In this document: positions 4,069 through 46,451 of the stretch, piece by piece | How the letters are laid out: each line of letters opens with the position of its first letter | Numbering within the stretch: position 1 is the first letter of the stretch | NCBI GenBank assembly: GCA_019449595.1 | Contig: JAGRPL010000004.1 | Coordinates: 992,001 to 1,056,000 of the forward strand | DNA from: Rhodoferax sp. | GTDB taxonomy: Bacteria > Pseudomonadota > Gammaproteobacteria > Burkholderiales > Burkholderiaceae_C | DNA: 64,000 nt | Direction: 5' to 3' | Notes under the pieces: generated by a model | What the model saw: the letters and a program-made list of their open reading frames with translations, nothing else | Database searches by the model: none | Told to the model about the DNA's origin: nothing | Translations under genes and position numbers: made by a program

Positions 4069-4658
4069 GCCCTCCGGATTTTGTTGGCAGCCTCTGCTGC
4101 GAGGGGAAAGTCTGCCTCCTTCCACTTGCTGACGGTGTAGCGTTGCATCCGCACATCGGGGGCCCAGAAGTCCGGTGACAGTCCGGCCTTGCGTTTCAAG
4201 TGGGCCATGAATGCAGAAGCTACCGGCAGCTGCTCCCATACCTGCGGCAGAAAGGTGGCGCGAAAGTGGCCGTATTCGAACAGCACACCGTCGACACCCG
4301 GTCGCAGCTGCGCCAATGCGTCGGCCTGGCTGGAAAAGGCCATGGCTTGCATCGACGACAGCAGGGACACCTCGATTTCCGTGTGCTCCAGTTCCCGTGC
4401 GACCAGGGGTGAAAAGCGCGGGTCCTGAAAAGCGGCTGCCCGGGCGTTGGCCTTGACGTCGGCGAGCAGGGGGCGGCGAGCCTCCAGTGTGCCGATGCAG
4501 CCACGCAGTTCGCCCTGCTGTGTCAGCGTGACGAAGCAGGCACCCGGTTCCTGCAGCCAGGGAGCCTCTTCACTGGCGTCGAGATGCTGTCCCAGGGCGC
4601 CGGCAATCGATGCCCGGGCAATGGGCAGCAGGGTTTGCCCCAGGCTAGTGGAGGTCAT
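4065..4658 (-). CDS. amrA: AMMECR1-family protein (AmrA)
   Basis: 197 aa from the ATG at 4658 (MTSTSLGQTL); an ATG seven codons further upstream is possible. AMMECR1 hallmarks are present: the LRGCIGTLEARRPL loop near residue 60, then FSPLVARELEHTEIEVSLLS and the late FWAPDVRMQRYTV segment. No catalytic mechanism is established for the family. The gene overlaps amrB by 14 nt upstream and amrS by 4 nt downstream, which implies translational coupling and supports one functional unit. Confidence 0.92.
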   Translation of the reverse strand: MTSTSLGQTLLPIARASIAGALGQHLDASEEAPWLQEPGACFVTLTQQGELRGCIGTLEARRPLLADVKANARAAAFQDPRFSPLVARELEHTEIEVSLLSSMQAMAFSSQADALAQLRPGVDGVLFEYGHFRATFLPQVWEQLPVASAFMAHLKRKAGLSPDFWAPDVRMQRYTVSKWKEADFPLAAEAANKIRRA

Positions 4659-5460
4659 GGGGCGGCTCCGTGAAGGCAATGGCGGTGTAGCCCACTACGC
4701 GCTGCTTGTCGCCAGCGGTGTCGCCGGAGTTGCACAACTCCAGCAGCCGGGGGATGAGATGGTGGTGCCGGGCGACGAGGAGTAACCCATTGATGGGGGT
4801 TCCGCCGCAGGCTTGCTCGTGCTGGATCGGTCCGTCCAGGTTCAGGATACGTTGCACGGTGCCTTGGTCGACGCCCTGTGCGGTGCGGTAGGGCAGGAAA
4901 TGGGATAGGTCGGAACTGACCACAACGAGTGTTTCCGGGCCGCCCCAGAGCGTTTCCAGCACTTGTGCCACTTCGGTTGGTGTGGCATTCCCTACGGCCA
5001 GGGGAAGGAGCGTGAAATCCTGCAACACAGTCTGCAGAAAGGGCAATTGCACCTCCAGCGAGTGTTCGGGCGCGTGGGCGGCAGGGCTGGTAACGACCTG
5101 CGGCAGATGTGCCAGTGTCGCTACGGCGTCCAGGTCAATCGGAATCTCTCCCAGCGGAGTGGCAAAGGCGGTGGCTCCGGGCAGGGCCAGGCCGCGGACG
5201 GCGACCCGGTGCACCGGGCCCAACAGCACCACCCGGCGGATGGTGCCGCGGGCGGCGGCCAGCTGCGCGTAGGCGAGGGCGGCGGTGGGGCCCGAATAGA
5301 TGTAGCCGGCGTGGGGCACGATCAGCGCCTTGGGCACCTCCACGCTGCCATTAACCTGTGCCTGGGCGGCGCGCAGCAGGTTGTCGACCGTGCTGGCCAA
5401 CGCTGGCCCCTGCCCCGGGTAAAAGGCACCGGCAACTGCGGGACGGCGGACGTTGGACAT
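4645..5460 (-). CDS. amrB: MEMO1-family protein (AmrB)
   Basis: 271 aa from the ATG at 5460 (MSNVRRPAVAGAFYPG). MEMO-family landmarks are the N-terminal AGAFYPG, the metal-site His in PHAGYIYSGPTAALAY, EHSLEVQLPFL, SSDLSHFLPY and the late ACGGTPINGLL. The fold resembles LigB-type non-heme iron dioxygenases, but bacterial members have no proven reaction. First gene of the amrB-amrA-amrS operon. About 145 nt separate it from the divergent phosphoribosyltransferase gene, so the two promoters probably share this gap. Confidence 0.92.
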   Translation of the reverse strand: MSNVRRPAVAGAFYPGQGPALASTVDNLLRAAQAQVNGSVEVPKALIVPHAGYIYSGPTAALAYAQLAAARGTIRRVVLLGPVHRVAVRGLALPGATAFATPLGEIPIDLDAVATLAHLPQVVTSPAAHAPEHSLEVQLPFLQTVLQDFTLLPLAVGNATPTEVAQVLETLWGGPETLVVVSSDLSHFLPYRTAQGVDQGTVQRILNLDGPIQHEQACGGTPINGLLLVARHHHLIPRLLELCNSGDTAGDKQRVVGYTAIAFTEPPHDLH

Positions 5461-5605
5461 GGCGGCTTCCAGAAAATGGATTGGAGACCTGTGACGTGAG
5501 GATGACTTGTGACTTATCAAGTCTGCCCGGGGTCGCCGATTGAAAATGGATTTCCGTGGTATGGGTTCTGGGTGTGATTTGATGTAAGTCAATTTGGAGG
5601 TCGTG

Positions 5606-6166
5606 ATGACGGTGGAGCAACGCACGACGGTTTACGGCAGCCGGGAGCTTCATGCCGTGCTCGACACCATGGCCGCGGCGCTTGCGGCGAAACTGGCGGG
5701 TATTGAACGGGTGTCGCTGGTCGGGGTGCTGCGTCGCGGGGCGCCGCTGGCGGACCAGCTGTTTGAGCGCCTGAAGCCGCTTTTGCCTGCCACGGATGTG
5801 GAGCGCATCGACCTGTCGATCAAGCGCTATGCCGACGATCTGACCCTGCTGCATCCACAGACGCAGCTGACCGAGCAGCCCGAGCACGCCCACATCGACC
5901 TGTCAGGCCGGGTGGTGGTCGTTGTGGACGACGTCCTTTACTGCGGGTTCTCGATGTTCCGGGCAGTCCAATACCTGCTGACCAAGGGCGTCAAGACCGT
6001 CCATGCCGTGGTGCTGGTGGACCGCGCCTGCGCCACTTTGCCTGTGCATGCAGACGTTTGCGGCCTGACTCTGCAGGTGGCGCCGGGGCACATCGTTGAA
6101 TGCCATGTTCCCCCGTACGAGCCATCCTGGCAGATTGTGCTGGTCCAGCCGGCCACGCCGGACTGA
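5606..6166 (+). CDS. PyrR-like phosphoribosyltransferase family protein
   Basis: 186 aa. The ATG at 5606 is preceded by a clear GGAGG (5596-5600), so I prefer it to the TTG at 5594. The type I PRPP-binding loop is VVVVVDDVLYCGFSM (residues ~108-122). VSLVGVLRRGAPLADQL supplies the pyrophosphate loop and IDLSIKRYADDL resembles the PyrR dimer region. PyrR proteins regulate pyrimidine genes and/or act as uracil phosphoribosyltransferases. The usual T/S-G-R-T in the PRPP loop is here C-G-F-S, so activity is uncertain. No pyrimidine genes are adjacent. Confidence 0.75.
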   Translation: MTVEQRTTVYGSRELHAVLDTMAAALAAKLAGIERVSLVGVLRRGAPLADQLFERLKPLLPATDVERIDLSIKRYADDLTLLHPQTQLTEQPEHAHIDLSGRVVVVVDDVLYCGFSMFRAVQYLLTKGVKTVHAVVLVDRACATLPVHADVCGLTLQVAPGHIVECHVPPYEPSWQIVLVQPATPD

Positions 6167-33759: not shown

Positions 33760-33804
33760 GACCCCACGGCGATGTGAGGCGTCTCTGACGCATCGGTGAA
33801 CATG

Positions 33805-33958: not shown

Positions 33959-34000
33959 TTAACACATATCAAACAAACATACATTGCATCTGCCTAAAAT
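33959..34000 (+). promoter_or_regulatory. FNR/Dnr-like box and -10 of the respiratory cluster
   Basis: TTAACACATATCAA (33959-33972) matches the FNR/Dnr consensus TTGAT-N4-ATCAA with a perfect right half and a left half TTAAC. TAAAAT (33995-34000) is a good -10. If transcription starts at ~34007, the box centre is at -41.5, the class II activator position, and no -35 is needed. The cluster encodes its own Dnr-like regulator (44860-45570). Seen directly: the motifs and spacing. Inferred: activator identity. Confidence 0.6.
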
Positions 34001-34055
34001 CGCGGCATTCGCCGGATACCGTTTCGTCGATGGAACTCTACTCAAGGATAACGCC

Positions 34056-34241
34056 ATGTCGCAAACCGATCACTCCCATGCTTCGCAGCACGCAACTGAC
34101 AATCCCAATGAGCCCGTGCCGCTGATGCAGCAATTGCTCGACAACCCCTTCCTGTTGCTGTTCCTCGGCGTTCTGATTCCCATGGTCGTTTACTCCCTGT
34201 GGGGCGTAATCGATATCTTGACTGTGCCGCTCGCCAAGTAA
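34056..34241 (+). CDS. Small single-span membrane protein, first gene of the respiratory cluster
   Basis: 61 aa from ATG 34056; an upstream in-frame ATG at 33984 lies before the predicted transcript start, so I reject it. A His/Asn-rich hydrophilic N-terminus (~25 residues) precedes one membrane span (NPFLLLFLGVLIPMVVYSLW). Its position directly ahead of the CuA subunit suggests a small accessory subunit, comparable in size and place to subunit IIa-like peptides of ba3-type oxidases. I do not recognise the family; role is inference. Confidence 0.7.
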   Translation: MSQTDHSHASQHATDNPNEPVPLMQQLLDNPFLLLFLGVLIPMVVYSLWGVIDILTVPLAK

Positions 34242-34291
34242 TTCACGGTCCATTCTTCGTAAACACCTAACAAAAACCTAGGAGAAAGCAT

Positions 34292-34831
34292 ATGAGCGCA
34301 ATATTGCCGCCGGCAGAACGGCTGTGGTGGAAGCACCCACTGGATCGCGTGGAGGGAACCTGGATCGTTATTGCCTTGGTCTGGTGCCTGAGCATGTTCG
34401 CCATGATGGTGGGCTGGCACATATACGGCAAGCAGAACCTGTCGACCGAAACCTACCGCACTACGCCGGAGCAGTTCTCTGTCAAGGCGCAGGCCATGGT
34501 GGACAAATACACGGTTCGCACTGAAACAGAAGGCAACATTCCCGTGGTGGCTCCGCCCCCGGGCAGTGATGTGTACCTCACAGCCCGCCTGTGGAACTTC
34601 TGGCCCATCATTGAGCTGGAAAAAGACAAGACCTACCGCTTGCATCTCACGTCGATGGATTACAACCACGGCTTTTCGCTGCAACCCGCCAATATCAACA
34701 TCCAGATCGTGCCAGGGTATGAGCACGTGGTGAAGGTTACGCCGAACAAGGCTGGTACTTATTCGGTCGTTTGTAACGAATTTTGTGGAATCAACCATCA
34801 CACGATGGTGAGTCGCATTTACGTGAAATAA
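34292..34831 (+). CDS. CuA-containing heme-copper oxidoreductase subunit II (NorS-like)
   Basis: 179 aa, preceded by AGGAG. One N-terminal span (residues ~24-43) anchors a periplasmic cupredoxin domain. The CuA ligands are complete: His126 (MDYNHGFSLQP) and Cys161, Cys165, His169, Met172 in CNEFCGINHHTM. It accepts electrons from cytochrome c or a cupredoxin and passes them to subunit I, 1 nt downstream. The one-span form is like ba3-type subunit II and the NorS subunit of sNOR enzymes. Confidence 0.88.
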   Translation: MSAILPPAERLWWKHPLDRVEGTWIVIALVWCLSMFAMMVGWHIYGKQNLSTETYRTTPEQFSVKAQAMVDKYTVRTETEGNIPVVAPPPGSDVYLTARLWNFWPIIELEKDKTYRLHLTSMDYNHGFSLQPANINIQIVPGYEHVVKVTPNKAGTYSVVCNEFCGINHHTMVSRIYVK

Positions 34832-34832
34832 G

Positions 34833-36539
34833 GTGACGCAGATGACAACGACTACTTACCGTACCTGCCCGCGTTCCGGGCTTCAATTTGAATCGCAGGC
34901 CGAGAAGCTGATGATTGCGAACGCCGTCACGGCGGTCGTGGCGCTGCTGGTTGGCGGCATTCTCGCCATTGGCGTGGTGTTGACACGCTGGCCCACCGTG
35001 CACTGGCTGGCTGCAGACACCTTCTACATGGTGCTGACCGCACACGGCATTGACATGCTGATTTACTGGATCATCTTTTTCGAGATGGCCGTGCTCTATT
35101 TCTGCTCATCTACCTTGCTGCGGTGTCGCATTGCGACGCCAAAGGTCGCTTGGGCAGCTTTTGCGCTGATGCTGGTCGGTGCCATCACGAACAATGTGGC
35201 GGTCTTCCAGGGTAGCTCCAGCGTCATGATGACGTCCTATGTGCCCATGATGGCTGCGCCGTCGTTTTATTTGGGCCTGATCCTGTTCGCAGTGGGCGCC
35301 CTGATTGGCTGCTTTGTGTTCTTCGGCACATTGGTGATCGCCAAGCGCGACAAGACTTACCAAGGCTCCGTACCGTTGGTGACCTTTGGTGCCATCGTTG
35401 CAGCCATCATTGCCGTGTTCACCATCACATCGGGTGCCATCATTCTGATTCCAACGTTCCTGTTGTCCATCGGCTTGATCAGCGCAGTTGACCCCCTGAT
35501 TTACCGCACCATCTGGTGGGCCTTCGGTCACTCGTCCCAGCAGATCAACGTGGCTGCGCACATCTCCATCTGGTATGCCGTGGCAGCGATTGCCTTCGGT
35601 GCCAAGCCCATGTCCGAGCGTGTGAGTCGCGGCGCTTTCCTGCTGTACATCCTGTTCCTGCAACTGGCCAGCGCGCACCACTTGCTGGCCGACCCCGGCG
35701 TCAGCACCGCCTGGAAAGTGGTCAACACCAGCTACTTCATGTATTTCGCCGTGCTGGCGTCCATGATCCACGGCTTGACCATTCCCGGCGCCATTGAAGT
35801 GGCTCAACGTGCCAAGGGTTTCAACAACGGTCTTTTCGAGTGGTTGCGCAAGGCGCCCTGGGGTAACCCGGTGTTCTCGGGGGTGTTCATTTCCCTGATC
35901 GGCTTCGGTTTCCTCGGCGGCATCTCCGGCGTGATGATGGGTACCGAGCAGCTCAACATGATCATCCACAACACGATTTACGTGCCGGGCCACTTCCACG
36001 CCACCGTGGTCGTGGGTACCACCCTGTCCTTCATGGCTTTGACGTATTTCCTGATTCCCGTGCTGTTCCGCCGGGAGATGATCAACCCTGGCCTGGCGAA
36101 GGTGCAGCCATACCTGTTCGGCCTGTCGATGTACTTCTTCTGTCTGGTCATGATGGGCGCCGGTACGCTGGGCGTTTCCCGCCGTCACTGGGACATGGCC
36201 TTCAATGGCTCCCCCATGGCTTACGAATGGCCGGGTGCTGCCTACCTGCTGATGGGTCTGGTCGGTATCGCCGGTATCTCTGCTATCGTTGGTGGTGCCA
36301 TCTACATCTACATCACGGTGGGTTCACTGCTGTGGGGCAAGAAGCTGAGCGCGGGTAACACCAGTGCCAATTTCACTCCCATTCCTCCCACAGCACCGAC
36401 CGCCGTTGCGCAGTCGTACGGTTCTGCCGGCTTTGCGGCACCGGGCACCTTTGTCCTGGCCATGGTGTTCTTGGTGTCGTTTGTTCTGTACTACTTCATC
36501 AACTGGAAATACCTGTCCCAGGTATGGGGATTGAGCTAA
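34833..36539 (+). CDS. Heme-copper subunit I lacking the active-site Tyr (NorY/sNOR-like)
   Basis: 568 aa, ~13 spans. Ligands are complete: His71 (low-spin heme, LTAHGIDMLIYW), His233, His282 and His283 (CuB), His387 and His389 (VPGHFHATVV). HHLLADPGVSTAWK resembles B-family (ba3) oxidases. However, the H-x3-Y that supplies the cross-linked Tyr in A/B oxidases is HSSQQ (233-237): Tyr is replaced by Gln237. Loss of this Tyr is expected of NO reductases, and the order subunit II, subunit I, then a SCO/SenC protein resembles the norSY-senC cluster of ammonia oxidisers. I therefore favour a cytochrome c-dependent NO reductase over an O2 reductase. Confidence 0.75.
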   Translation: MTQMTTTTYRTCPRSGLQFESQAEKLMIANAVTAVVALLVGGILAIGVVLTRWPTVHWLAADTFYMVLTAHGIDMLIYWIIFFEMAVLYFCSSTLLRCRIATPKVAWAAFALMLVGAITNNVAVFQGSSSVMMTSYVPMMAAPSFYLGLILFAVGALIGCFVFFGTLVIAKRDKTYQGSVPLVTFGAIVAAIIAVFTITSGAIILIPTFLLSIGLISAVDPLIYRTIWWAFGHSSQQINVAAHISIWYAVAAIAFGAKPMSERVSRGAFLLYILFLQLASAHHLLADPGVSTAWKVVNTSYFMYFAVLASMIHGLTIPGAIEVAQRAKGFNNGLFEWLRKAPWGNPVFSGVFISLIGFGFLGGISGVMMGTEQLNMIIHNTIYVPGHFHATVVVGTTLSFMALTYFLIPVLFRREMINPGLAKVQPYLFGLSMYFFCLVMMGAGTLGVSRRHWDMAFNGSPMAYEWPGAAYLLMGLVGIAGISAIVGGAIYIYITVGSLLWGKKLSAGNTSANFTPIPPTAPTAVAQSYGSAGFAAPGTFVLAMVFLVSFVLYYFINWKYLSQVWGLS

Positions 36540-36550
36540 TCCGGTAAAAC

Positions 36551-36574
36551 GTACGCGGGCCTCGGCCCGCGTAC
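36551..36574 (+). other. Strong intercistronic hairpin
   Basis: Perfect inverted repeat GTACGCGGGCC / GGCCCGCGTAC with a minimal TC centre, between the subunit I and heme synthase genes. No T run follows, so it is not a typical terminator. It may stabilise the upstream mRNA segment or limit read-through, giving more catalytic subunit than assembly factor. Confidence 0.7.
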
Positions 36575-36623
36575 TGCCTTACTGCCTCTCGCACCGCAAG
36601 GAAAAACTAGGACGAAGAACGAG

Positions 36624-37520
36624 ATGCTGAATACCAAGCCATCCGGCACAACAGCCTCCATGCGCATGACCCGCAATGTTCTGGGTTTATTCAAGCTTCG
36701 CATTGGCTTCATGATCATGATCACCGCACTGGTCGGCTTGGCGGTTACGCCGGGACCGTCCCTGGGCTGGCCCAAATTGCTGGTGCTGGCGGTGGCAGTG
36801 CTTCTGTCTTCGGCCAGTGCCGGGGCGTTCAACCAGTATTACGAGCATGACAGCGACCGCCTGATGGCGCGCACCAGAGGCCGCGCGTTTGCCACCGGGG
36901 CCTTGCCTCATACACCCGCGTGGCTGTGGCTCATGGCGGCCGTGCTGGCTGCATCCGTCTTGTGCGCCGGTTGGGTGCTCAATCCGGTGTCGGCGGTGTT
37001 TGTGTTCTTGGGTGCGTTTTTCTACGCCATTGTGTATACCGTCTGGCTCAAACGCCGGAGCTGGCTCAACATTGTGGTGGGAGGACTGGCGGGAAGTTTT
37101 GCGGTTCTGGCGGGGGCGGCAGCGGTCGACCCCCAAATAGGCCCGTTGCCGTTCCTGCTGGCTACCGTGCTGTTTTTGTGGACACCACCGCATTTCTGGA
37201 GCCTGGCCATTGCCAATGAGGCCGAGTACGCAGCCGCTGGCATCCCCATGTTGCCGGTCGTGGTGGGCGTTCCGCGGGCTGCACGCGTTGTGCTGTGGAG
37301 TACCGTGGCACTGGCCCTGACCGCATTGTTGCCCGTTTTCTTTGGCGCCGGTGTCATCTATTTGCTGGGTGCCCTGGCGGGCGGTGGTTACTTTGTCTAC
37401 AAGGCATCGCAGCTGGCCCGCACCCCGACGCGCAAGACAGCCATGGGGGCATTCTTCGCCTCGCTGGTTCAGCTCAGCCTGCTCCTGGTGACGGCAACCC
37501 TCGACAGGCTGGCGTATTGA
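36624..37520 (+). CDS. Protoheme IX farnesyltransferase homologue (heme O synthase, CyoE/CtaB type)
   Basis: 298 aa UbiA-superfamily prenyltransferase with ~8 spans. The prenyl-diphosphate motif is NQYYEHDSDRLMARTRGRA, and the second-loop YTVWLKRRSWLNIVVGG and WTPPHFWSLAI are CyoE-type. It would add the farnesyl group to heme B. Its place inside the cluster implies that at least one of the two heme-copper subunits uses heme O or a heme derived from it. Standard CyoE has D-x3-D where this has E/H-D-x-D, but the pattern is conserved enough to expect activity. Confidence 0.85.
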   Translation: MLNTKPSGTTASMRMTRNVLGLFKLRIGFMIMITALVGLAVTPGPSLGWPKLLVLAVAVLLSSASAGAFNQYYEHDSDRLMARTRGRAFATGALPHTPAWLWLMAAVLAASVLCAGWVLNPVSAVFVFLGAFFYAIVYTVWLKRRSWLNIVVGGLAGSFAVLAGAAAVDPQIGPLPFLLATVLFLWTPPHFWSLAIANEAEYAAAGIPMLPVVVGVPRAARVVLWSTVALALTALLPVFFGAGVIYLLGALAGGGYFVYKASQLARTPTRKTAMGAFFASLVQLSLLLVTATLDRLAY

Positions 37521-37543
37521 AACAGGATTCCGGGTTCGGCGCC

Positions 37544-38500
37544 ATGTCTGCTCCGCTTGCCATGTTTGTGCACACCGCCCGGTACGTGGCGGTGCGCCTG
37601 ATGGCCATCATGGCGCTCATGGCCTACCCGTGCTTCGCCAGTGCCAGCGCCGAGCCATTTCAGGGCACTCCCTCCGTTGGTCTTGATCAAAAGGCGGCAC
37701 TCAGCCTGAGCCAAGCGGTCGTGGGCAAGACCGTCAGCGACTACACGCTGCTCGATCGCGAAGGGCGGCCGGTGCGCCTCTCCCGTTTCCGCGGCAAGCC
37801 ATTGTTGGTCAGTTTTATCTACACGGGGTGTTTTCAGGTCTGCCCGCTGACGACCCGTTCCCTGCAAAAAGCCGTTGAGTCGGGGCGGGACATGTTTGGT
37901 ACCAACCAGTTCAATGTCGTTAGCATTGGATTCAACCAGCCGGCCGATTCGCCGCAATCCCTGAAGGCTTTTGCCAAGCAGCACCGCATCGATGTGCCCA
38001 ACTGGGAGTTCCTGAGCCCGCACGCATCGATTGTTGAGCCATTGACGCGGGAGTTTGGCTTCAGTTACATGGCCACACCCGCCGGTTTCGATCACATACT
38101 GCAGGTGACGCTGCTAGATGCGGACGGGCGCATTTACCGGCAGATTTATGGCGAGGACCTCTCCGCCAATGCCATTGGCGAACCCCTGAAGCAGCTCATT
38201 AGCAACGCCCCGATCCCGCAGCAACTGCGCCTGGACGATCTCATCGATCGCGTGCGCATTCTTTGCACGGTGTACGACCCCAAAACCGGCCAATACCGGG
38301 TGGAATACGGGCTGCTGCTTGAGGTGGCCGGTGGCATTACTTTTGCACTGACCATGGCCTGGTTCTTCTTTTCGGAATGGCTGGCCCGTCGTCGGGCACG
38401 TCGCGCCCTGCAGTCGTCTCTTTCAGTTCCATCCGGTGGCGAGGGGAGTGCACGAGTCCATCTGGATGTGAAACGCAAGGTCGACGTGCAGACGCTGTAG
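37544..38500 (+). CDS. SCO1/SenC-family copper chaperone
   Basis: 318 aa from ATG 37544. An N-terminal signal or anchor (RLMAIMALMAYPCFASASA) precedes a thioredoxin-like domain with the copper-binding Cys96 and Cys100 (TGCFQVCPLTT) and His184 (FDHILQVTLL). Residues ~265-285 form a C-terminal membrane span followed by a basic tail, longer than usual SCO proteins (~200 aa). SCO proteins load or reduce the CuA site of subunit II, which this cluster encodes. Confidence 0.9.
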   Translation: MSAPLAMFVHTARYVAVRLMAIMALMAYPCFASASAEPFQGTPSVGLDQKAALSLSQAVVGKTVSDYTLLDREGRPVRLSRFRGKPLLVSFIYTGCFQVCPLTTRSLQKAVESGRDMFGTNQFNVVSIGFNQPADSPQSLKAFAKQHRIDVPNWEFLSPHASIVEPLTREFGFSYMATPAGFDHILQVTLLDADGRIYRQIYGEDLSANAIGEPLKQLISNAPIPQQLRLDDLIDRVRILCTVYDPKTGQYRVEYGLLLEVAGGITFALTMAWFFFSEWLARRRARRALQSSLSVPSGGEGSARVHLDVKRKVDVQTL

Positions 38501-38510
38501 AGCGTCAGCA

Positions 38511-40493
38511 GTGCTGCCATCAACGTCCCTATTGAAACGAGTTCCTGTGTTTAATTTCCTACAAACCCTTGTGCAGCGGGCATTCCTCGCAGTGGAGAAA
38601 CCTCTCAGCGCCATTTTTGGCGACCGTCTGAATCCACTGTATTACCTCGGTGCCATTACCTATTTCCTGCTGTGGGTGGTCATTGGCACGGGCCTGTATC
38701 TGTATGCATTCTTCGAGACCGGTGTCGCGGGTGCCTTTGATTCGGTGGAGGCCCTGACGCACGGTCAGTGGTTTTTCGGCGGTATTGTGCGCAGCGTGCA
38801 CCGTTACGCGTCCGATGGCCTGATGCTCAGCATGGTGCTGCATCTGGTACGGCATGCCACGTTTGACCACCACCGCGGGCTGCGCTGGTTTTCTTGGGTT
38901 TCGGGCGTGCTGCTGATGTGGCTGACCTATGCCTCGGGCGTCAACGGCTACATGCTCCCCTGGGACCGGCTGTCGCAATTCGTAGTCACGGCAACCACCG
39001 AGTGGTTCGACGTGCTCCCGCTCATTGGCGGGTCCATGACGAGAAATTTCATTTCCAACGCCAACGTCAGCGACCGGCTGTTTTCCCTGCTCGCTTTCAT
39101 GCACATCGGCCTGCCGCTGAGTGTGCTGGCAGTACTGTGGATCCATACCCAGCGCACGCCCAGTGCCAAAACCAATCCGCCGCGACCACTGATGATCGGC
39201 ATCATGGTGAGCCTGGTTGTTCTGTCGTTGATCAAGCCGGCGCTGAGCCAGGGGCGGGTGGATATGGCCACCTGGCCCGCGACGGTTCATTTCGACTGGT
39301 TCTATCTGCCCGCTTACCCACTGATTCAAGGCTGGGGACCTACCAAGACCTGGCTGTTTTCTATTGGGGCAACCGTGCTGCTGGTTCTGATGCCCTGGCT
39401 GCCACCGCAACGCCGGGGCAAGCAGAAGTCGTGGAGCATGGCCGTTCATCCGGACGAGCGCATCATTTCGGCTCGCAGCGGCGAAACGTTGCTGGACGCG
39501 GGCTTGCGCGAAGATCTGCCCATGCCCTTTGAATGCCGCAACGGTGGCTGCGGCGTTTGCAAGGCCACGCTGCTGCACGGAAAAGTGCACCTGCAACCCT
39601 ACCAGGAGTCTGCGCTGACCGCTGCGGAACGTGCAGCCGGAAAGACCCTGCTGTGCTGCGCGGAGCCCTTGTCGGATGTCGAAATCGAATACGTTCCCCA
39701 GCACAACCCCAAAGCGCTGCCGCTGAAACAGTACGTGGCACGCGTGACCCGGCTCGAGCCGCTGTCCTATGACGTCATGCGCCTGTGCCTGCAGACCGAG
39801 GGCGGGTCTGCGCTGCAGTTTTATGCGGGCCAGTACATCAACATCGTCCTGGGAGACGGCGCCAAGCGCAGTTTCTCCTTTGCTGCCGCTCCGCATACGG
39901 CGGAAGAAATCGAGTTGCACGTCCGGTTGGTTCCGGGGGGCCGGTTCACCACCGAGGTGTTCACCCACATGAAGGTTGGCGATACCTTGAGGTTTGAAGG
40001 CCCGTTGGGCGCCTTCACATTGCGGGAAGACAGCGAGAAGCCAATTATCTTTGTGGCTGGTTCAACCGGCTTTGCCCCAGTCAAAAGCATGCTGGAACAC
40101 GCGTTCCACCACGGGTTGAACCGCCGCATGATCCTGTATTGGGGGGTGCGCAGTCGGCGCGATCTCTACCTGGGGTCTCTGGCAGAACAATGGGCTCAAG
40201 AGCATGCCAATTTCACCTTCATCCCCGTGCTGTCGGATGCGCGTCCCGAAGACGACTGGAGCGGGAGAACCGGGTTGGTGCATGAAGCCATTCTGGCGGA
40301 TTTCCCGGACCTTTCCCAGCACCAGGTGTACGCCTGTGGTTCGGTGCAGATGGTCGCGGCGGCACAGCCTGCGTTCGTCAAGCACGGGATTTCCACCGAT
40401 GACTGTTTCTCGGACGCGTTCCACCTGGCGCCACAGAAACCGCTGGATGGCCAGCACGCCGATATGGTGAAACTTGGAGGTTCGAATGTCTGA
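38511..40493 (+). CDS. Cytochrome b fused to a 2Fe-2S ferredoxin and FAD/NAD(P)H reductase
   Basis: 660 aa from GTG 38511; GTG 38547 is an alternative. Residues ~40-220 are a cytochrome b N-terminal domain with two heme pairs: His97/His111 and His198/His212, each 14 apart. After another span (~280-297) comes a plant-type 2Fe-2S domain (Cys342, 347, 350 in ECRNGGCGVCK, and Cys382 or 383). A ferredoxin-NADP reductase-type module follows: FAD motif RSFSF (453-457), nucleotide motif AGSTGFAPVKSML and VYACGSVQM. It would pass electrons from NAD(P)H through FAD and 2Fe-2S to membrane hemes. I know no characterised protein with this exact fusion. Confidence 0.85.
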   Translation: MLPSTSLLKRVPVFNFLQTLVQRAFLAVEKPLSAIFGDRLNPLYYLGAITYFLLWVVIGTGLYLYAFFETGVAGAFDSVEALTHGQWFFGGIVRSVHRYASDGLMLSMVLHLVRHATFDHHRGLRWFSWVSGVLLMWLTYASGVNGYMLPWDRLSQFVVTATTEWFDVLPLIGGSMTRNFISNANVSDRLFSLLAFMHIGLPLSVLAVLWIHTQRTPSAKTNPPRPLMIGIMVSLVVLSLIKPALSQGRVDMATWPATVHFDWFYLPAYPLIQGWGPTKTWLFSIGATVLLVLMPWLPPQRRGKQKSWSMAVHPDERIISARSGETLLDAGLREDLPMPFECRNGGCGVCKATLLHGKVHLQPYQESALTAAERAAGKTLLCCAEPLSDVEIEYVPQHNPKALPLKQYVARVTRLEPLSYDVMRLCLQTEGGSALQFYAGQYINIVLGDGAKRSFSFAAAPHTAEEIELHVRLVPGGRFTTEVFTHMKVGDTLRFEGPLGAFTLREDSEKPIIFVAGSTGFAPVKSMLEHAFHHGLNRRMILYWGVRSRRDLYLGSLAEQWAQEHANFTFIPVLSDARPEDDWSGRTGLVHEAILADFPDLSQHQVYACGSVQMVAAAQPAFVKHGISTDDCFSDAFHLAPQKPLDGQHADMVKLGGSNV

Positions 40494-41019
40494 TATACCG
40501 GTATCTGCGGGGTTGCCTGCACCCATGCGTTATGCCTTGCAGGCGCTTATCTACGGCCTTTTCGCTGCCTTTCTGGGCTACTTCTCTACCGCGCCGGCTT
40601 ACCGCTTGCGCGGGGACAATGAAGCCGTGGTCAAACTCTCGTTCAGCCATTCAGCCCAGTTGATGCAGACCTGTCGGGAACGCAGTGAAGCGGAGCTGGC
40701 CAAGCTCGCGCCGAATATGCGCACCAAAATGGATTGCCCCCGTGAGCGCGCAACGGTTGCCGTTGAACTCGACATGGACGGCAAGCCGCTGTACCGCATC
40801 CAGATTCCTCCAACCGGTTTGCGCAAGGACGGCGCGGCCACCGTGTACCGTCGCCTGGACATTCCGGCCGGGCAACACCAGTTCCGCGCTCGCCTTGCGG
40901 ACGGACCGGATGGTGCATTCACCTTTGTGCACGAAGCGGGCGTAGATCTGGCGCCGGGCGAAGTTCTGATTGTCGATTTCTCTGCCAGTGGTAGCGGCTT
41001 CATTTTCACGCGCGGATAA
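40486..41019 (+). CDS. Conserved-looking membrane-anchored protein, unknown
   Basis: 177 aa from ATG 40486, with GGAGG upstream and overlapping the previous gene by 8 nt. One N-terminal span (YALQALIYGLFAAFLGYFS) is followed by a soluble, beta-rich periplasmic region (VAVELDMDGKPLYRIQIPPT, DIPAGQHQFRARLADGPDG). Two Cys (MQTCRERS, KMDCPRER) may form a disulfide. No heme or metal motif is visible. It lies between the two cytochrome b fusion genes, so it is probably a scaffold or assembly subunit of their complex; this is inference. Confidence 0.7.
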   Translation: MSDIPVSAGLPAPMRYALQALIYGLFAAFLGYFSTAPAYRLRGDNEAVVKLSFSHSAQLMQTCRERSEAELAKLAPNMRTKMDCPRERATVAVELDMDGKPLYRIQIPPTGLRKDGAATVYRRLDIPAGQHQFRARLADGPDGAFTFVHEAGVDLAPGEVLIVDFSASGSGFIFTRG

Positions 41020-41028
41020 TGGCCTGGC

Positions 41029-42600
41029 ATGTCCACCCTGATTCGCATTCTGCGTGACGGTGATGAACACCTGAGCGGCACGTTCGACCACGCGTTCGCC
41101 CCAGCCCACAATCCCTGGCGCCATCTCGGCGCGCTGTCCTTTCTGTGTCTGGTCATCGCCGTTGTCAGCGGCATCGTGGCCTATGCGCTTTACGACACCA
41201 GCGTCAGCGGCGCCTACGAATCCGGCCGACGGCTGCAGTTGGATCCGTGGCTGCTGGGGCGCCTGTTGCGTGGCATGCACCGCTATTCCTCTGACGGCTT
41301 CATGCTGCTGACCGTGCTGCACCTGTTGCGTGAAGCCGTGCGGGGGCACTTTCTGGGTTTTCGCTGGTATTCCTGGATTACCGGAGTTCCATTGCTCTGG
41401 ATACTCTGGGTTGCAGGCATTACCGGGTTTTGGTTGCTGTGGGACGAGCGTGCCCTGTTCAGTGTGACGGCGACCGCCGAGTGGCTCCAGTCCCTGCCGC
41501 TGTTCTCTGACCAGCTGGTGCGCAATTTCCTGACCGCCGATGCGCTGAATGATCGGTTCTTTTCCTTGGTTATTTTCATCCACATCGGCTTGCCGCTGCT
41601 GTTGCTGGCGGGGGTGTGGATCCATGTGCAACGGGTGTCGCATGCCCGTGTCTGGCCGCCCCGTGTCCTGACCGTCGGCAGCCTGGTCACGCTCGGGCTG
41701 CTTTCGCTGGTCGTACCCGCCGAGAGCCTGGGGCCTGCCGATACCGGCAACCTTCCCGCGGCATTGTCTCTGGACTGGTTCTATCTGTTCGTCCACCCTC
41801 TGGTGGATTACTTGTCTGCCAACGGGGTATGGCTGCTCGCGGCGCTGCTGACGGGGGTACTCCTGGCCATGCCCTTGCTGCCCATGCGGATGCGGCCTGG
41901 CAAGGCGAGGGCGGTTGCCCACGTGGATCTGGCCAATTGCAACGGTTGCGCGCGTTGCGCTGCCGATTGCCCTTTTGGGGCCGTCATCATGGTTGCGCGC
42001 AACGACCAGCGCCACCACCTGCAGCAGGCGGCGGTCATCGCGGACATGTGTGCGGCATGCGGGATCTGTGTGGGTTCCTGTCCATCCTCCACACCCTTTC
42101 GCCGCATGGAAGACATCGTGTCGGGCATAGAGCTGCCCGATACCCCGGTGGTGGCACTGCGCAAGCAATTGCAGGAGCGATTGGCTGCCTTGACCGGGTC
42201 GCCCAAAATCATGCTGTTTACCTGCAGCCAGGCTACCGACGGGCAGGTATTGGGAGATGCCGCAACAGCCGTCTTGCCCCTGGAGTGCGCCGGCATGCTG
42301 CCGCCCTCGTTCATCGAATACGCGCTGCGCCTGGGGGCGGATGGGGTTGTGGTTTCCGGTTGCCGCGAAGGGGACTGCGAGTTTCGCCTGGGCGACCGTT
42401 GGGTGCAGGACCGGTTTGCCGGAGTCCGTGCGCCATCGCTGCGGGCCTCGGTTGCCCGCGATCACATGGCCGTGGTCTGGGCCGGCAACAGCCCGGAGCG
42501 CATTCGCCTCGCTGTGGAGACGCTTCGGGCCAGCCTAAAATCCACGGACCAGCCGCCCGCTGTTTCCCCCGCACTTGTGCACGAAGAACACCATGACTGA
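41029..42600 (+). CDS. Cytochrome b fused to two 4Fe-4S clusters and an MvhD-like domain
   Basis: 523 aa. Residues ~30-205 repeat the bis-heme cytochrome b design (His84/His98, His185/His199). Two spans near 210-285 lead to a 2x[4Fe-4S] domain (Cys304, 307, 310, 314; Cys341, 344, 347, 351). The C-terminal ~130 residues resemble MvhD, the 2Fe-2S 'hydrogenase delta' adaptor of heterodisulfide reductase/hydrogenase complexes, with Cys399, Cys420, Cys445 and Cys450 (SGCREGDCEF). It appears to link soluble low-potential carriers to membrane hemes. No hydrogenase or Hdr genes are nearby, so partners are unknown. Confidence 0.85.
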   Translation: MSTLIRILRDGDEHLSGTFDHAFAPAHNPWRHLGALSFLCLVIAVVSGIVAYALYDTSVSGAYESGRRLQLDPWLLGRLLRGMHRYSSDGFMLLTVLHLLREAVRGHFLGFRWYSWITGVPLLWILWVAGITGFWLLWDERALFSVTATAEWLQSLPLFSDQLVRNFLTADALNDRFFSLVIFIHIGLPLLLLAGVWIHVQRVSHARVWPPRVLTVGSLVTLGLLSLVVPAESLGPADTGNLPAALSLDWFYLFVHPLVDYLSANGVWLLAALLTGVLLAMPLLPMRMRPGKARAVAHVDLANCNGCARCAADCPFGAVIMVARNDQRHHLQQAAVIADMCAACGICVGSCPSSTPFRRMEDIVSGIELPDTPVVALRKQLQERLAALTGSPKIMLFTCSQATDGQVLGDAATAVLPLECAGMLPPSFIEYALRLGADGVVVSGCREGDCEFRLGDRWVQDRFAGVRAPSLRASVARDHMAVVWAGNSPERIRLAVETLRASLKSTDQPPAVSPALVHEEHHD

Positions 42601-44011
42601 CACCAATCTGCAGGCTCCCCCGATGCCTTTGGGCCAACCGGGCGCCGCCATGACCCATTTCGACTTTGATCTTGCAGTGCCACAGGACACGCGCCGGCCA
42701 CTTGCGGTGGCCTGGTTCGCGCTGGGAATGATGGCACTGCTGGCTTCCGGACTGTTCTCGATCTTGCTGGTGCTCTCGCGCACGCCCCAGTTGCAGACGC
42801 TGTTTCCGGTGGCGGACTTCTTTCGCGTGGCATTGGTGGTGCACGTGGACCTTTCGGTGCTGGTGTGGTTTCTGGCCTTTGGCGGCGCCTTGTGGACCCT
42901 GAGCGGGACACAGCGGTATCGCCCCATGGCCTGGTTCGCCTTCGCTGTAGCGGCCCTGGGTACAGCGGCCATGTGCATATCTCCCTTTGTGGAGCGTGCC
43001 ACCCCGGTCATGGCCAACTACGTTCCCGTGCTGGACGGCCCGGTATTTTTGACCGGATTGGTGCTGTTTGGCGTCGGCATTGCTACGCTGTGCCTGCGGT
43101 CCATGCTGGCGGTAGCTCCTGTGGGCTCCCATATTTCCGGCGCCGGGGCACTGCGTTTCGGGCTGCGTGCGGCCCTGGTGGCCAACGCCGTGGCCGTGTT
43201 TGCGTTTGCCTGGTCCTGGGTCTCGGTGCCACGGGAACTGGACTCGCGTATTTACTATGAACTGCTGTTCTGGGGCGGCGGGCATGTGCTGCAATTTGCT
43301 TACACCCTGCTGATGCTCGTCAACTGGATCTGGCTGGCCTCCGTGGTGGGGGTGCGTTTTCCGCTGTCTCCCCGGGTAGTGACCCTGTTGTTCGCCATCG
43401 CCCTGGTAAGCGTCTTTCTGACGCCCATCACTTACCTGGCCTACGACGTCACTTCGGTTGAGCACCACAGCATGCAAACCCTGCTGATGCGGTTTGGCGG
43501 CGGCCTGGTCATTCCACCGATCGCGATGGCGATTTTGTGGGCACTGTGGCCGGCGCGCGCGATAACGGCAGAGCAGCGCCCGCTGCGTGCCAGCCTGATT
43601 GCCTCCTTGGTGCTGTTCTCCGCCGGGGGCATCATCGGCTTCTTGATCAGCGGGAGCAATGTCCGCATACCGGCCCACTACCACGGTTGCATCGTGGGCG
43701 TGACGCTGGCCATGATGGGGGTCGTGTACCTGCTGCTGCCGCGGTTGGGCTTTTTCGCTCCCCGTTCCAGGGCTGCGGCATGGCAGCCCTACGTGTACGG
43801 GGTTGGCCAGCTGATGCACATCATCGGGCTGGTCTGGTCCGGCGGCTACGGTGTGCAGCGCAAGGTGGCTGGGGCCGAGCAGGTGCTGCGTTCGACCCAG
43901 GAGACGATGGGCATGGGGTTGATGGGACTCGGCGGTCTGATCGCTATTGTGGGGGGCGTCATGTTTGTGGTCATCGTGCTGCGAGCATTGCGGCGACCTC
44001 GCGCACAATAG
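42593..44011 (+). CDS. Second, divergent heme-copper subunit I-like protein
   Basis: 472 aa, ~12 spans, overlapping the previous gene by 8 nt. Ligand set present: His84 (LVVHVDLSVLVW), His231 (WGGGHVLQF), His291 and His292 (SVEHHSMQ), His362 and His364 (PAHYHGCIVG). The H+4 position that is Tyr in A/B oxidases is Phe235, and neither the NorB Glu nor a cytochrome c domain is seen. No second CuA gene follows, so electrons probably come from the cytochrome b fusion beside it. Automatic pipelines would likely call it cbb3-type subunit I. A role as NO or O2 reductase is open; I lean to NO. Confidence 0.75.
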   Translation: MTDTNLQAPPMPLGQPGAAMTHFDFDLAVPQDTRRPLAVAWFALGMMALLASGLFSILLVLSRTPQLQTLFPVADFFRVALVVHVDLSVLVWFLAFGGALWTLSGTQRYRPMAWFAFAVAALGTAAMCISPFVERATPVMANYVPVLDGPVFLTGLVLFGVGIATLCLRSMLAVAPVGSHISGAGALRFGLRAALVANAVAVFAFAWSWVSVPRELDSRIYYELLFWGGGHVLQFAYTLLMLVNWIWLASVVGVRFPLSPRVVTLLFAIALVSVFLTPITYLAYDVTSVEHHSMQTLLMRFGGGLVIPPIAMAILWALWPARAITAEQRPLRASLIASLVLFSAGGIIGFLISGSNVRIPAHYHGCIVGVTLAMMGVVYLLLPRLGFFAPRSRAAAWQPYVYGVGQLMHIIGLVWSGGYGVQRKVAGAEQVLRSTQETMGMGLMGLGGLIAIVGGVMFVVIVLRALRRPRAQ

Positions 44012-44014
44012 GGC

Positions 44015-44863
44015 ATGGACGCAACCATTCCTTCACCATCTTCCTCCCCGAAACCTGCAAGGGTTTTGCAGGCCATTGGTGCCATGGGCTCGGTATTGGC
44101 ACTGGCCATTTTGGGCACCAGCATTTTTCTGCGCCTGACCACGGCCGTGGGGGAGGGCGGCGTCCTGGCGTCCACCTTGCCACCGACGGTGGAAGGTGTC
44201 GCCCGCATGGTGCATCGCCTGTCGGCCTCGGGTGTCGGGCTGCTGGCGCTGTTGGCCACCGTTCTGTGCTGGCGGCGGCCCGCCGTGGCGCTGGCAATCC
44301 GGCCGACGGTGGGAGTCGTTGCGGCGACCGTGGTGCTGGCGGTGATCGGTCCGCTGACGCCCGGCTACCGGTTTGCGGCTGTCACGGTTGCCAATGTGGT
44401 GGGGGGAACCGTCCTGCTGGCGTCCTTCTGGTGGTTGCGCGAATCGCTGGCCACTGCGCACACGCGTCGTCCGCCCGGCCATCCCATGTTGTTCGTGACG
44501 CTTCTGGTGTTCTTCCTGCACGTGGGCTTGGGCGCTGCCGCCAGCGCCCTGGAGATGCGCGCCATCCACTGGGTGGCCTTTCTCCACGTGGGCACGGCGA
44601 TGCTGACCAGCATGCTCGTTGGCTCCATCCTGTGGGATCGACGTGAACACCAGCCTCTGGCAAAGCTGGTCGGGGCCCTGGCAGCGTTGCTGGCTGCTCA
44701 ACTGGCTCTGGGCTTGCTTCTCCTCTGGGTCGGCGGACGGCCGCCCGGACTGGGACTGGTGCATGCCATGCTGTCGCCGCTATTGCTCGCCGGTCTGATT
44801 TCCATGGCGCAACGCGACACCATTGAAAGACCGGCCACCCCCTCGCAGGAGCCCTGCAAATGA
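44015..44863 (+). CDS. CtaA/COX15-like membrane protein
   Basis: 282 aa with ~8 spans in two similar halves. His67 in ARMVHRLSASG matches the CtaA HR motif; His191 and His250 fit the second-half heme pair. The place of the first-half partner His appears to be Asn127 (VTVANVVGG). CtaA proteins oxidise heme O to heme A and use b-type heme; this distant homologue may instead be a heme-handling or electron-transfer subunit. It lies 3 nt after the heme-copper gene and overlaps the regulator gene (ATGA). Confidence 0.65.
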   Translation: MDATIPSPSSSPKPARVLQAIGAMGSVLALAILGTSIFLRLTTAVGEGGVLASTLPPTVEGVARMVHRLSASGVGLLALLATVLCWRRPAVALAIRPTVGVVAATVVLAVIGPLTPGYRFAAVTVANVVGGTVLLASFWWLRESLATAHTRRPPGHPMLFVTLLVFFLHVGLGAAASALEMRAIHWVAFLHVGTAMLTSMLVGSILWDRREHQPLAKLVGALAALLAAQLALGLLLLWVGGRPPGLGLVHAMLSPLLLAGLISMAQRDTIERPATPSQEPCK

Positions 44864-45570
44864 ATGGATCTACCTTGCCGCCCGCCAGCGCACCCGTCCA
44901 GCATTTCCTGCTCAATATCCCGCTGCTGCGCGACGCGACCGCCGATGAGGTGGAGCGCATGGCCGTTGGCACCCGGCGCCTGAAGGTGGCAAAGGGCGAG
45001 ATGCTGTTTCACCGCGGAGACCCGTGCGACGGATTCTGGGTGGTTCTCTCCGGCCAGATCAAACTGTCGGTGGGCTCCGAGCAGGGGATGGAAAAAGTCA
45101 TTGAAATACTCGGGCCGGGCCGGACTTTTGGCGAGGCAGTCATGTTCATGGACATGAACTACGTGGTGTCGTCGCAGGCCCTGGCCGATTCGGTGGTGTT
45201 GCATGTGCTCAAGAGCACCGTGTTCTCGGAGCTGGAGCACAACCCGACCTTCGCCCGCAAGATGCTGTCCGGCCTGAGTCGCCGTCTGCATGGTTTGATT
45301 CGCGACGTGGAGTCCTACTCCATGCGTTCAGGAACCGAGCGCGTGATCGGCTTCCTGACACGCATTGACGGCAGCGAAAACGACAGCGACAGCAACGCCT
45401 CGACTATTACCCTGCCGGCGAGCAAAGTGACCATTGCCTCGCGCCTGAACCTCACACCCGAGTATTTTTCGCGCATTCTTCACGACCTTGCCGCAGCCGG
45501 GCTGATTGAAGTCAGCGGCAAGACGATTCGCGTACCGGACCTGCAGCGCCTGCGGGATTTCCGAGCCTAG
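44860..45570 (+). CDS. Crp/Fnr-family regulator, Dnr-like
   Basis: 236 aa. The cyclic-nucleotide-binding fold (KVAKGEMLFHRGDPCDGFWV, GPGRTFGEAVMFM) and dimer helix lead to a winged helix (SKVTIASRLNLTPEYFSRIL). The recognition helix E-x-F-S-R resembles Dnr/NnrR, which bind FNR-like boxes. There is no N-terminal Cys cluster, so it is not an O2-sensing Fnr. Dnr-type regulators sense NO through heme. It is co-transcribed with the cluster and could activate it through the box at 33959. The NO signal is inferred. Confidence 0.82.
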   Translation: MNGSTLPPASAPVQHFLLNIPLLRDATADEVERMAVGTRRLKVAKGEMLFHRGDPCDGFWVVLSGQIKLSVGSEQGMEKVIEILGPGRTFGEAVMFMDMNYVVSSQALADSVVLHVLKSTVFSELEHNPTFARKMLSGLSRRLHGLIRDVESYSMRSGTERVIGFLTRIDGSENDSDSNASTITLPASKVTIASRLNLTPEYFSRILHDLAAAGLIEVSGKTIRVPDLQRLRDFRA

Positions 45571-45580
45571 AGGGCCTGCC

Positions 45581-46240
45581 ATGTACCTGCCACCCCAGTT
45601 TCAGGCCAAAGACCACGCGATCGCGCAGGACCTGATGCGGGCCTACCCGTTTGCCAGCCTGATCAGCACCGATGATGCAGGCCTGCCGTTTGTCACGCAC
45701 CTGCCATTGCATCTGGAAACACGTCCGGCCTGCGGCGAGCAGCCAGCCCGAGACGTGCTGCTGGGTCACGTCGCCAAACCCAACCCGCATTGGCGTTACC
45801 TGCAGGCCCGTTCCACCGCTGTCGTCACCTTTGTGGGGCCACATGCCTACCTGTCCCCCAAGGTCTACCCCGACCTGGCACGGGTGCCAACCTGGAATTA
45901 CCTCGCGGTGCACGGCACAGTCCAGGCCACGCTGATTGAAGATCCCTTGGCCAAAGACCGGCTGCTGAAGAAGCTCATTGGCGACCACGAACCACCGTAT
46001 GCCCGACAGTGGCAGGAGCAGGACGAAGGATTTGCCCACAAAATGCTGGCCGGTATCGTGGCGTTTGAGCTGGTCATCACCGATCTGCAGTGCAAAGTCA
46101 AAATCAACCAGCACCGACCGGAATCCCACGCTGCCATGCACGCAGGGTATGCCCAGGGCAATGAAAACGAGCAGGACTTGGCACGCTGGATGCGCCGCCT
46201 GGGGCTCAATACCGGCTCAGACAATCACGGAGAAAGCTGA
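45581..46240 (+). CDS. FMN-binding PaiB-family protein
   Basis: 219 aa from ATG 45581. The split-barrel PaiB pattern is clear: MYLPPQFQAKDHAIAQDLM, YPFASLISTDDAGLPFVTHL, GHVAKPNPHWRYLQ, AYLSPKVYPDLARVPTWNYL and CKVKINQHRPESHAAM. Family members bind FMN, and some affect sporulation or protease genes in Bacillus; others are heme-binding. Only 10 nt after the Crp/Fnr gene, so probably in the same transcript. A redox or heme-related role fits the neighbours but is unproven. Confidence 0.8.
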   Translation: MYLPPQFQAKDHAIAQDLMRAYPFASLISTDDAGLPFVTHLPLHLETRPACGEQPARDVLLGHVAKPNPHWRYLQARSTAVVTFVGPHAYLSPKVYPDLARVPTWNYLAVHGTVQATLIEDPLAKDRLLKKLIGDHEPPYARQWQEQDEGFAHKMLAGIVAFELVITDLQCKVKINQHRPESHAAMHAGYAQGNENEQDLARWMRRLGLNTGSDNHGES

Positions 46241-46241
46241 A

Positions 46242-46451
46242 ATGCGCGTCATTCTTGGTGTATTGAGCCTGTTGCTGGTGCTGGCAACCGTTGGGGTGCT
46301 GGTCAAGAAACAGATGGGAGCCCTGGCAGTTGCACCCACGCTGGCTCCGGCCGCCACACCGCAACAGCAGAGTCAGCAATTGCAGCAGCAAGTGCGGCAG
46401 TCGGTGGAGGGAAGTCTGCAGCAGGCCCGCCCCATGCCCGAAGACAAATGA
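46242..46451 (+). CDS. Small membrane protein, 69 aa
   Basis: From ATG 46242, with GGAGAAAG upstream and 1 nt after the previous stop. One N-terminal span (VILGVLSLLLVLATVGVLV) is followed by an Ala/Pro then Gln-rich tail (PQQQSQQLQQQVRQSVEGSL). No family recognised. It is the last gene before a repeat copy and the tadA fusion. Confidence 0.7.
   Translation: MRVILGVLSLLLVLATVGVLVKKQMGALAVAPTLAPAATPQQQSQQLQQQVRQSVEGSLQQARPMPEDK

Follow-up and report, generated by a model that had tools for sequence, protein, structure and literature searches.

eNOR is a B-family nitric oxide (NO) reductase (NOR) attributed to Hemp and Gennis (2008) in PMC8756737, whose Table A4 gives the residue found at the site of the active-site Tyr in each enzyme type: Gln in eNOR, Asn in sNOR and Asp in gNOR. 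eNOR features a B-family fold, a CuA subunit and three CuB His. The sNOR (norSY-senC) also has a CuA subunit, a B-type catalytic subunit and a SCO/SenC neighbor. The present work describes a cluster of thirteen genes (g1–g13) carried by a stretch of 64,000 nucleotides from Rhodoferax sp. (assembly GCA_019449595.1, contig JAGRPL010000004.1, positions 992,001 to 1,056,000 of the forward strand), which is called the window. Its genes g1–g9, the module, probably code for one NO-respiring membrane system of denitrifiers, built of an eNOR-type NOR (g3, HCO1) with a dedicated cytochrome b electron module. The system shares with eNOR the features listed above and differs from it by its extra partners, which are two cytochrome b fusions (g6, g8), an anchored beta-domain protein (g7) and a paralogue of the catalytic subunit that lacks CuB (g9, HCO2).

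As judged from the predicted proteins, the coupling of an eNOR-type NOR to a cytochrome b electron module and to a CuB-less paralogue appears to be new. Titles and abstract openings surveyed revealed no paper that links eNOR with cytochrome b fusions of this kind or reports a paralogue lacking CuB. Murali et al. reportedly dealt in 2024 with the eNOR of Rhodothermus marinus, and this neighborhood may already be on display there or in the supplement. The available parts of two reports place eNOR in Zetaproteobacteria and Gallionellaceae without mention there of these companions (PMC8114936, PMC10734462).

Organization of the cluster

The thirteen open reading frames lie on one strand between positions 34056 and 46451, spaced by −8 to +84 nt with three overlaps (list of open reading frames of the window). 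This bears out the tight same-strand arrangement reported in a preliminary description of the sequence, and the spacing would be compatible with a single transcript. The run starts downstream of a terminator-like site at 33804 behind guaA; the thirteen genes include neither a Rieske nor a cytochrome c1 gene. The CuA, heme O synthase, SCO, cytochrome b fusion (two genes), Crp/FNR and PaiB identities proposed in that description were confirmed by Pfam and NCBIfam domains; g1, g7 and g13 have no family match above noise in these databases. The module comprises:

34056..34241, + strand: g1, small subunit of 61 residues, one helix by reading; no Pfam/NCBIfam family; adjoins g2 in relatives
34292..34831, + strand: g2, putative CuA subunit II of NO reductase (PF00116; CuA ligands H126, C161, C165, H169, M172)
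34842..36539, + strand: g3 (HCO1), putative eNOR-type catalytic subunit (PF00115; Gln234 at the Tyr site; six His all present)
36624..37520, + strand: g4, heme O synthase CtaB (UbiA in Pfam; NCBIfam TIGR01473, 261.7 bits for a cut-off of 210.3)
37544..38500, + strand: g5, SCO1/SenC copper chaperone (PF02630)
38511..40493, + strand: g6, bc-type cytochrome b with 2Fe-2S ferredoxin and FAD/NAD(P) reductase (Pfam Cytochrome_B, Fer2, FAD_binding_6, NAD_binding_1)
40486..41019, + strand: g7, N-terminal transmembrane segment and beta-sandwich, no known family (AlphaFold2; weak Foldseek matches)
41029..42600, + strand: g8, bc-type cytochrome b with 2x[4Fe-4S] and MvhD/FlpD (Pfam Cytochrome_B, 4Fe4S, FlpD(MvhD))
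42593..44011, + strand: g9 (HCO2), heme-copper-fold protein with both heme sites and without the CuB His-His pair (Pfam COX1; alignments; AlphaFold2)

The catalytic subunit HCO1 and the CuA subunit

The closest solved relatives of HCO1 in the PDB are the ba3 oxidases of Aquifex and Thermus. The helix VI motif GHSSQQ of HCO1 positions Gln at the place of the cross-linked Tyr of oxygen reductases in 93/93 aligned rows. Five of its heme and CuB His sites are kept in all 93 rows and the helix II His in 91 (two gaps), while the CuA ligands of g2 are complete in 96/96; in these counts, as in those of HCO2 below, some genomes appear twice, as unnamed and named copies. HCO1 is called eNOR-type because Gln at the Tyr site matches the published eNOR signature, a placement made by signature in a comparison without authentic eNOR sequences. 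A single proton channel is a further trait of eNOR; in one alignment with Thermus ba3, the counterparts of the channel residues Y248, S309 and T315 are kept and those of Y244 and T312 changed.

The claim that both COX1-family proteins of the cluster are devoid of the active-site Tyr was upheld, with Gln in HCO1 and Phe in HCO2. The sNOR label first given to the system was not. sNOR differs from HCO1 by Asn at the Tyr site, and sNOR-type sequences, found with the motif GH-x3-N in four module genomes (L214, L215, L216, L218), branch apart. In a tree of the COX1 family, built from manually chosen rows, with long branches and with support values from a short search, and used for the groupings given here only, these four rows form their own clade (SH-aLRT 100), as do eight HCO1 rows (98). 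A hunt for norSY references of the Nitrosomonas type through ammonia oxidizers found no close HCO1 relative in seven of ten genomes bearing amoA/pmoA, all of one family.

Conservation and distribution of the module

A sample of 250 genomes of the window's family was searched. HCO2 has a match in 26 of them, 25 showing the module neighborhood and one (G248) a different locus. HCO1, counted at E<=1e-60, is found in 25/250 genomes, identical to the 25 module carriers recognized by synteny, which belong to 19 genera. The modules of G090 and G186 were read from split contigs; g6 was not seen in G186, nor g4 in G027. A scan of named GTDB genomes gave at least 590 pattern matches and 566 confirmed g9 relatives, of which the best 80 were analyzed. 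The 54 well-covered loci (at least 9 kb before and at least 4 kb after) contain all nine core genes in 45 cases, and g1, g2, g3, g5, g7, g8 and g9 in 52. The two exceptions are L197, with no g8 detected, and L158, without g1–g3 and g5. The gene order is mostly g5-g6-g7-g8-g9 or g5-g8-g7-g9-g6, with g6 divergent in seven loci.

Among the bacteria with the core are Comamonas granuli, Simplicispira hankyongi, Quisquiliibacterium, Herbaspirillum sp. ST 5-3, Curvibacter sp. PAE-UM and some Gammaproteobacteria. The genus of the window is represented in the sample by two other genomes, neither of which has the module, and this patchy presence suggests transfer or loss. The core recurs in other classes of the phylum, at 35–64% identity in L110, which has an HCO2 relative upstream of g1 and whose fetched stretch stops behind g7. 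In L101, L103, L105 and L106, partly contig fragments, the core is found at 38–50% identity with g8 doubled in tandem and no match to g4 or g6; both g8 copies of L101 have the cytochrome b, 4Fe4S and FlpD domains (Pfam). Recurrence of the gene set across 19 genera and other classes is not due to chance. The co-inherited module that had been proposed thus stands, with HCO1 in exactly the 25 module genomes of the family and 45/54 named loci complete; no scattering into independent genes was seen in the relatives examined.

Two peculiarities of copy number are reported. The tandem cytochrome b-4Fe4S-MvhD copies (L101, 7698–10946; L103; L105) look as if one stood in for the NAD(P)H-type fusion g6. 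G166 carries, besides a full module, a second g9-g10-g11 copy on a short contig (L067, G166:C141).

Association with denitrification

The nirS gene, counted as a cytochrome d1 match of at least 258 bits, is present in 23/25 module genomes (G211 from two partial matches) and in 47/225 others (G160 from a partial match; Fisher p=1.8e-12, the test ignoring the ancestry shared among the 25 genomes of 19 genera). It is found within 10 kb of g1–g9 on the same contig in 10/25 module genomes (G027 as a partial match) and at about 520 kb from the module in the window's genome. The NOR repertoires were established from COX1-family matches judged by score, plus 18 places that were read. By this approach cNOR, qNOR and sNOR all went undetected in ten module genomes (G027, G061, G090, G098, G100, G101, G118, G123, G173 and G225), G123 being judged partly on fragments. 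G225 is 100% complete in 3 contigs. G211, which has only fragments beside the module, was left unclassed.

The direct case is Candidatus Desulfobacillus denitrificans. PMC8402940 reports that this bacterium has all the other denitrification genes, including nirS and nosZ, but unexpectedly no norBC, and that cbb3 oxidases and norVW were weighed as alternatives without success; it presents the organism as an imperfect denitrifier and a possible source of NO for anammox bacteria. Its complete genome (AP021857.1) carries g1, g2, g3, g5, g8, g7, g9 and g6 on one strand within 10.6 kb, with the GHSSQQ motif in HCO1. Surveys of norB alone would overlook NO reduction in denitrifiers of this kind. The module probably produces the greenhouse gas N2O, including in bacteria thought to be without this step. 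The denitrification link drawn in the preliminary description is supported by the nirS association, by the FNR/Dnr boxes (see below) and by the obligate co-occurrence of HCO1 and module in the sampled family.

Besides shared ancestry, several points weigh against the module being an NO-respiring system. Neither nirS nor nirK was seen in G186, and G100 has only nirK (over cut-off). Fourteen module genomes have another NOR (cNOR in four, sNOR in four and apparently qNOR in nine, three of the latter read as sequences and six assigned by score; some genomes have two), and the module is therefore not the only NOR there. The window's own genome is among those with a qNOR. Of the ten genomes listed above, two have an odd, unclassified COX1 protein (L219 in G027 and L220 in G098). 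The membership of HCO1 in eNOR rests on the Gln signature, the tree holding no authentic eNOR sequence, and the tallies of named loci, seeded from HCO2 matches, are unable to reveal HCO2-free modules.

The same data bear on the possibility that denitrifiers use the module at low O2 as an O2 reductase of high affinity, NO reduction being a side reaction at most. FNR boxes are as compatible with low O2 as with NO, the cluster has genes of oxidase biogenesis (CtaB and a CtaA-like protein), and the sNOR, another Tyr-altered B-type enzyme, is argued in PMC6967387 to be a possible high-affinity oxidase. This reading is nevertheless unlikely in view of the absence of the active-site Tyr from all 93 HCO1 rows, the nirS linkage and the ten module genomes without cNOR, qNOR or sNOR.

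The cytochrome b fusions and g7

The fusion of cytochrome b to NAD(P)H/flavin/2Fe-2S modules in g6 and to 4Fe-4S/MvhD modules in g8, as first read from the sequence, is borne out by their Pfam domains. The four heme b His are present in 99–100% of 176 and 182 rows, in which g6 and g8 are pooled because each retrieves the other through its cytochrome b part. The ferredoxin Cys counts of this pool mix both cluster types; the 2Fe-2S and 4Fe-4S Cys were read in the window proteins, in line with the Pfam matches. The membrane part aligns with the bc1 cytochrome b of the same genome over 239 columns (98.7%, hhalign), through the Qo loop. Both have two His pairs 14 residues apart and are aligned through the ef loop. 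The fusions differ from the cytochrome b of bc1/b6f complexes by their shorter length, by DWF at the place of PEWY/PVWY in the Qo loop (PVWY in the bc1 of this genome) and by the fused cytoplasmic redox domains.

The carboxyl-terminal part of g8 resembles MvhD/FlpD of Hdr-Mvh and HdrA2/Qmo-type systems, in which a FlpD domain likewise follows two 4Fe-4S clusters. Its best NCBIfam match over the 4Fe4S/FlpD part is HdrA2, below cut-off, and it differs from these systems by its fusion to cytochrome b and the lack of the HdrA flavin part. FlpD/MvhD is found in 25/215 family genomes, namely in each of the 23 module genomes among them and in two further genomes. For 20 of these 23 genomes g8 has the only FlpD domain, so that MvhD occurs here without a second MvhD system alongside.

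Protein g7 is modeled by AlphaFold2 as a beta-sandwich anchored by one helix (pLDDT 92), with weak Foldseek matches. H55 and H131 are more than 90% conserved. An assignment as a Rieske-like or copper protein was rejected, since both of its Cys are missing in L101, it shows no clear metal motif and the Foldseek matches are weak.

HCO2, a heme-copper fold without the CuB pair

AlphaFold2 gives HCO2 a confident heme-copper fold (pLDDT 90.2) whose top Foldseek match is ba3 (TM 0.69/0.61). Its heme ligands are kept, with H84 in 123 of 124 rows (one gap) and H362 and H364 in 124. Helix VI H231 and Q234 are found in 124/124 rows, H231 being the only CuB His kept, and Phe occupies the Tyr place (profile alignment to Thermus ba3; site table). 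The helix VII CuB His-His pair is absent in the 124 rows. Its place is at 277–278 in the profile alignment to Thermus ba3 or, three residues apart, at 280–281 by MAFFT; P278 is found in 120/124 rows and a single His at 281 in seven. L121 and L125 have HH at 284–285, just beyond the helix end. The His pair in EHHSMQ of the window protein lies further along, at a variable position occupied by HR, QQ or FQ in relatives. In the tree, 23 HCO2-type rows form one clade (100), of which 22 have no CuB pair. The exception, L117, which is 25% identical and long-branched, has HH in the aligned columns beside a gap, in a T-x-L-M context that assigns it to the later variable site.

HCO2 had been taken for a second heme-copper subunit and terminal reductase. 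Neither designation is borne out, two of the three CuB His being missing, and this was also the reason to reject a second NO/O2 reductase as the principal reading. Because helix VII lacks the CuB His-His pair, a second NO or O2 reductase activity in HCO2 is unlikely, as far as ligands predict it; HCO2 is most likely a heme-carrying electron-transfer or assembly subunit. The clade offers a heme-copper fold without the usual CuB site and separates the heme-binding needs of the fold from its catalytic needs.

In a set of 35 genomes, many of them offering short flanks, the HCO2 relatives outside the module adjoin a COX15/CtaA relative in 12 cases and DUF420 in two. A Pfam check of the neighbors in L109, L112 and L116 found CtaA in L109 and L112. 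Four relatives from other classes (L102, L104, L107, L112) are near a CuA protein with the full CxxxC..H..M motif. These neighborhoods link the HCO2 clade to heme A/O enzymes, without separating an electron carrier from an assembly factor. No HCO2 match was found on plasmids.

Some further genes of this type deserve mention. HCO2-like genes beside a COX15/CtaA relative and without module are found in L076, L077, L079, L090, L093, L097, L100, L102, L104, L107, L112 and L113; in L112 the HCO2-like and CtaA genes overlap by 4 nt and the CuA gene is close by. The window's genome codes for a further COX1-family protein with altered ligands (L221, G000:C13:49600-52300; also L219), with VPGYFHF in helix X (Tyr for the catalytic-heme His), SLYHMF in helix VII and FHNMHY in helix VI. 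It represents another degenerate heme-copper paralogue and branches by itself in the tree, outside the HCO2 clade. The unclassified L220 (G098:C12:816700-819200) has Glu four residues past the helix VI His, keeps the helix VII HH and has one His of two in helix X (SGHTMTV).

Proposed function of the module

HCO1 with its CuA subunit (g1–g3) would reduce NO made by NirS to N2O, and CtaB (g4) and SCO (g5) would serve the maturation of the heme and copper of HCO1. The short bc-type cytochrome b proteins g6 and g8 would join the quinone pool to cytoplasmic redox partners, NAD(P)H for g6 and an iron-sulfur/MvhD donor or acceptor for g8, and the anchored g7 would hold the two together. HCO2 would be a degenerate heme-copper paralogue that carries heme for electron transfer or takes part in assembly. 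Electrons might flow from NAD(P)H/ferredoxin toward NO, or outward from quinol, a low-potential branch leading back into the cytoplasm. The reduction of NO by cNOR is not known to conserve energy by itself. This might be different for an eNOR connected to cytochrome b proteins that act on NAD(P)H and quinone.

Alternatively, g6–g9 could be a separate unit for NO/O2 stress or heme assembly that is co-regulated with the eNOR, HCO2 acting as a heme chaperone of the CtaA pathway fed by the cytochrome b fusions. The COX15/CtaA neighbors of HCO2 relatives (12/35 genomes), the two cases of DUF420 and a CtaA-like g10 on the strand of g9 in 27/80 named loci are in its favor. The linkage of HCO1 and HCO2 in all 25 family genomes, the conserved order and the position of g6 or g8 directly after g5, unbroken, in many loci make such a division improbable, and two full cytochrome b fusions are, in our judgment, much machinery for assembly.

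An extension of the NO-respiring system to a quinol-bifurcating respirasome, with a Qo-like site at DWF in the cytochrome b fusions and HCO2 as a heme wire, is unlikely. Of the two quinol electrons, one would reach the eNOR by way of CuA, while hemes bL and bH would carry the second to 2Fe-2S/FAD and 4Fe-4S/MvhD, so that the energy of NO reduction would yield NAD(P)H or reduced ferredoxin. HCO2 would link these parts as a heme-copper protein converted for electron transfer. It is very improbable that HCO2 is a second catalytic subunit that reduces NO or another substrate at a metal site rebuilt from H231, Q234 and other residues. In favor of this reading, these two are invariant and four relatives lie near a complete CuA protein; against it, the helix VII pair is gone in 124 rows and in 22/23 tree rows (all except L117) with no conserved acidic or His replacement seen at its position.

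Peripheral genes and regulatory sequences

The following features complete the locus:

33959..33972, + strand: candidate FNR/Dnr box TTAACACATATCAA, 1 mismatch; 97 nt upstream of g1; start of the interval delimited in the preliminary description
44015..44863, + strand: g10, CtaA-like membrane protein, peripheral (PF02628, 22.1 bits, under the cut-off of 29.9)
44860..45570, + strand: g11, Crp/FNR-type regulator, Dnr-like by reading, position variable between loci (PF00027, PF13545; FtrB model below cut-off)
45581..46240, + strand: g12, PaiB-like FMN-binding protein, outside the conserved module (PF04299, FMN_bind_2)
46242..46451, + strand: g13, small protein of 69 residues, membrane anchor by reading; no family above noise

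Genes g10–g13 are peripheral. The resemblance of g10 to COX15/CtaA noted earlier stands, while the family cut-off is not reached. Among the best 80 of the 566 relatives, g10 is matched in 35 loci (27 of them on the strand of g9, as cited above), g11 in 28 and g13 in three; g12 has no match in these loci or in the family neighborhoods. Being so rarely matched, g12 and g13 are not part of the conserved unit.

A regulator of the FNR/Dnr type would turn on the g1–g9 unit. A perfect FNR/Dnr box is found in 20 of 82 distinct sequences upstream of g1 and one with at most one mismatch in 43, where mononucleotide shuffles predict 0.02 and 1.44, respectively. The box at 33959, with its one mismatch, is by itself unremarkable, the window having seven such sites for 4.2 expected.

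The g11-type regulator changes place. Its gene stands behind g10 in loci of the window type and is divergent upstream of g1 in L046, L049, L051, L055–L057, L060, L062 and L065. The sole perfect FNR-type box of the window, TTGATGTAAGTCAA, is at 5579–5592, at the border of two genes that by reading code for a MEMO1-like protein (4645–5625, minus strand) and a phosphoribosyltransferase-like protein (5594–6166, plus strand).

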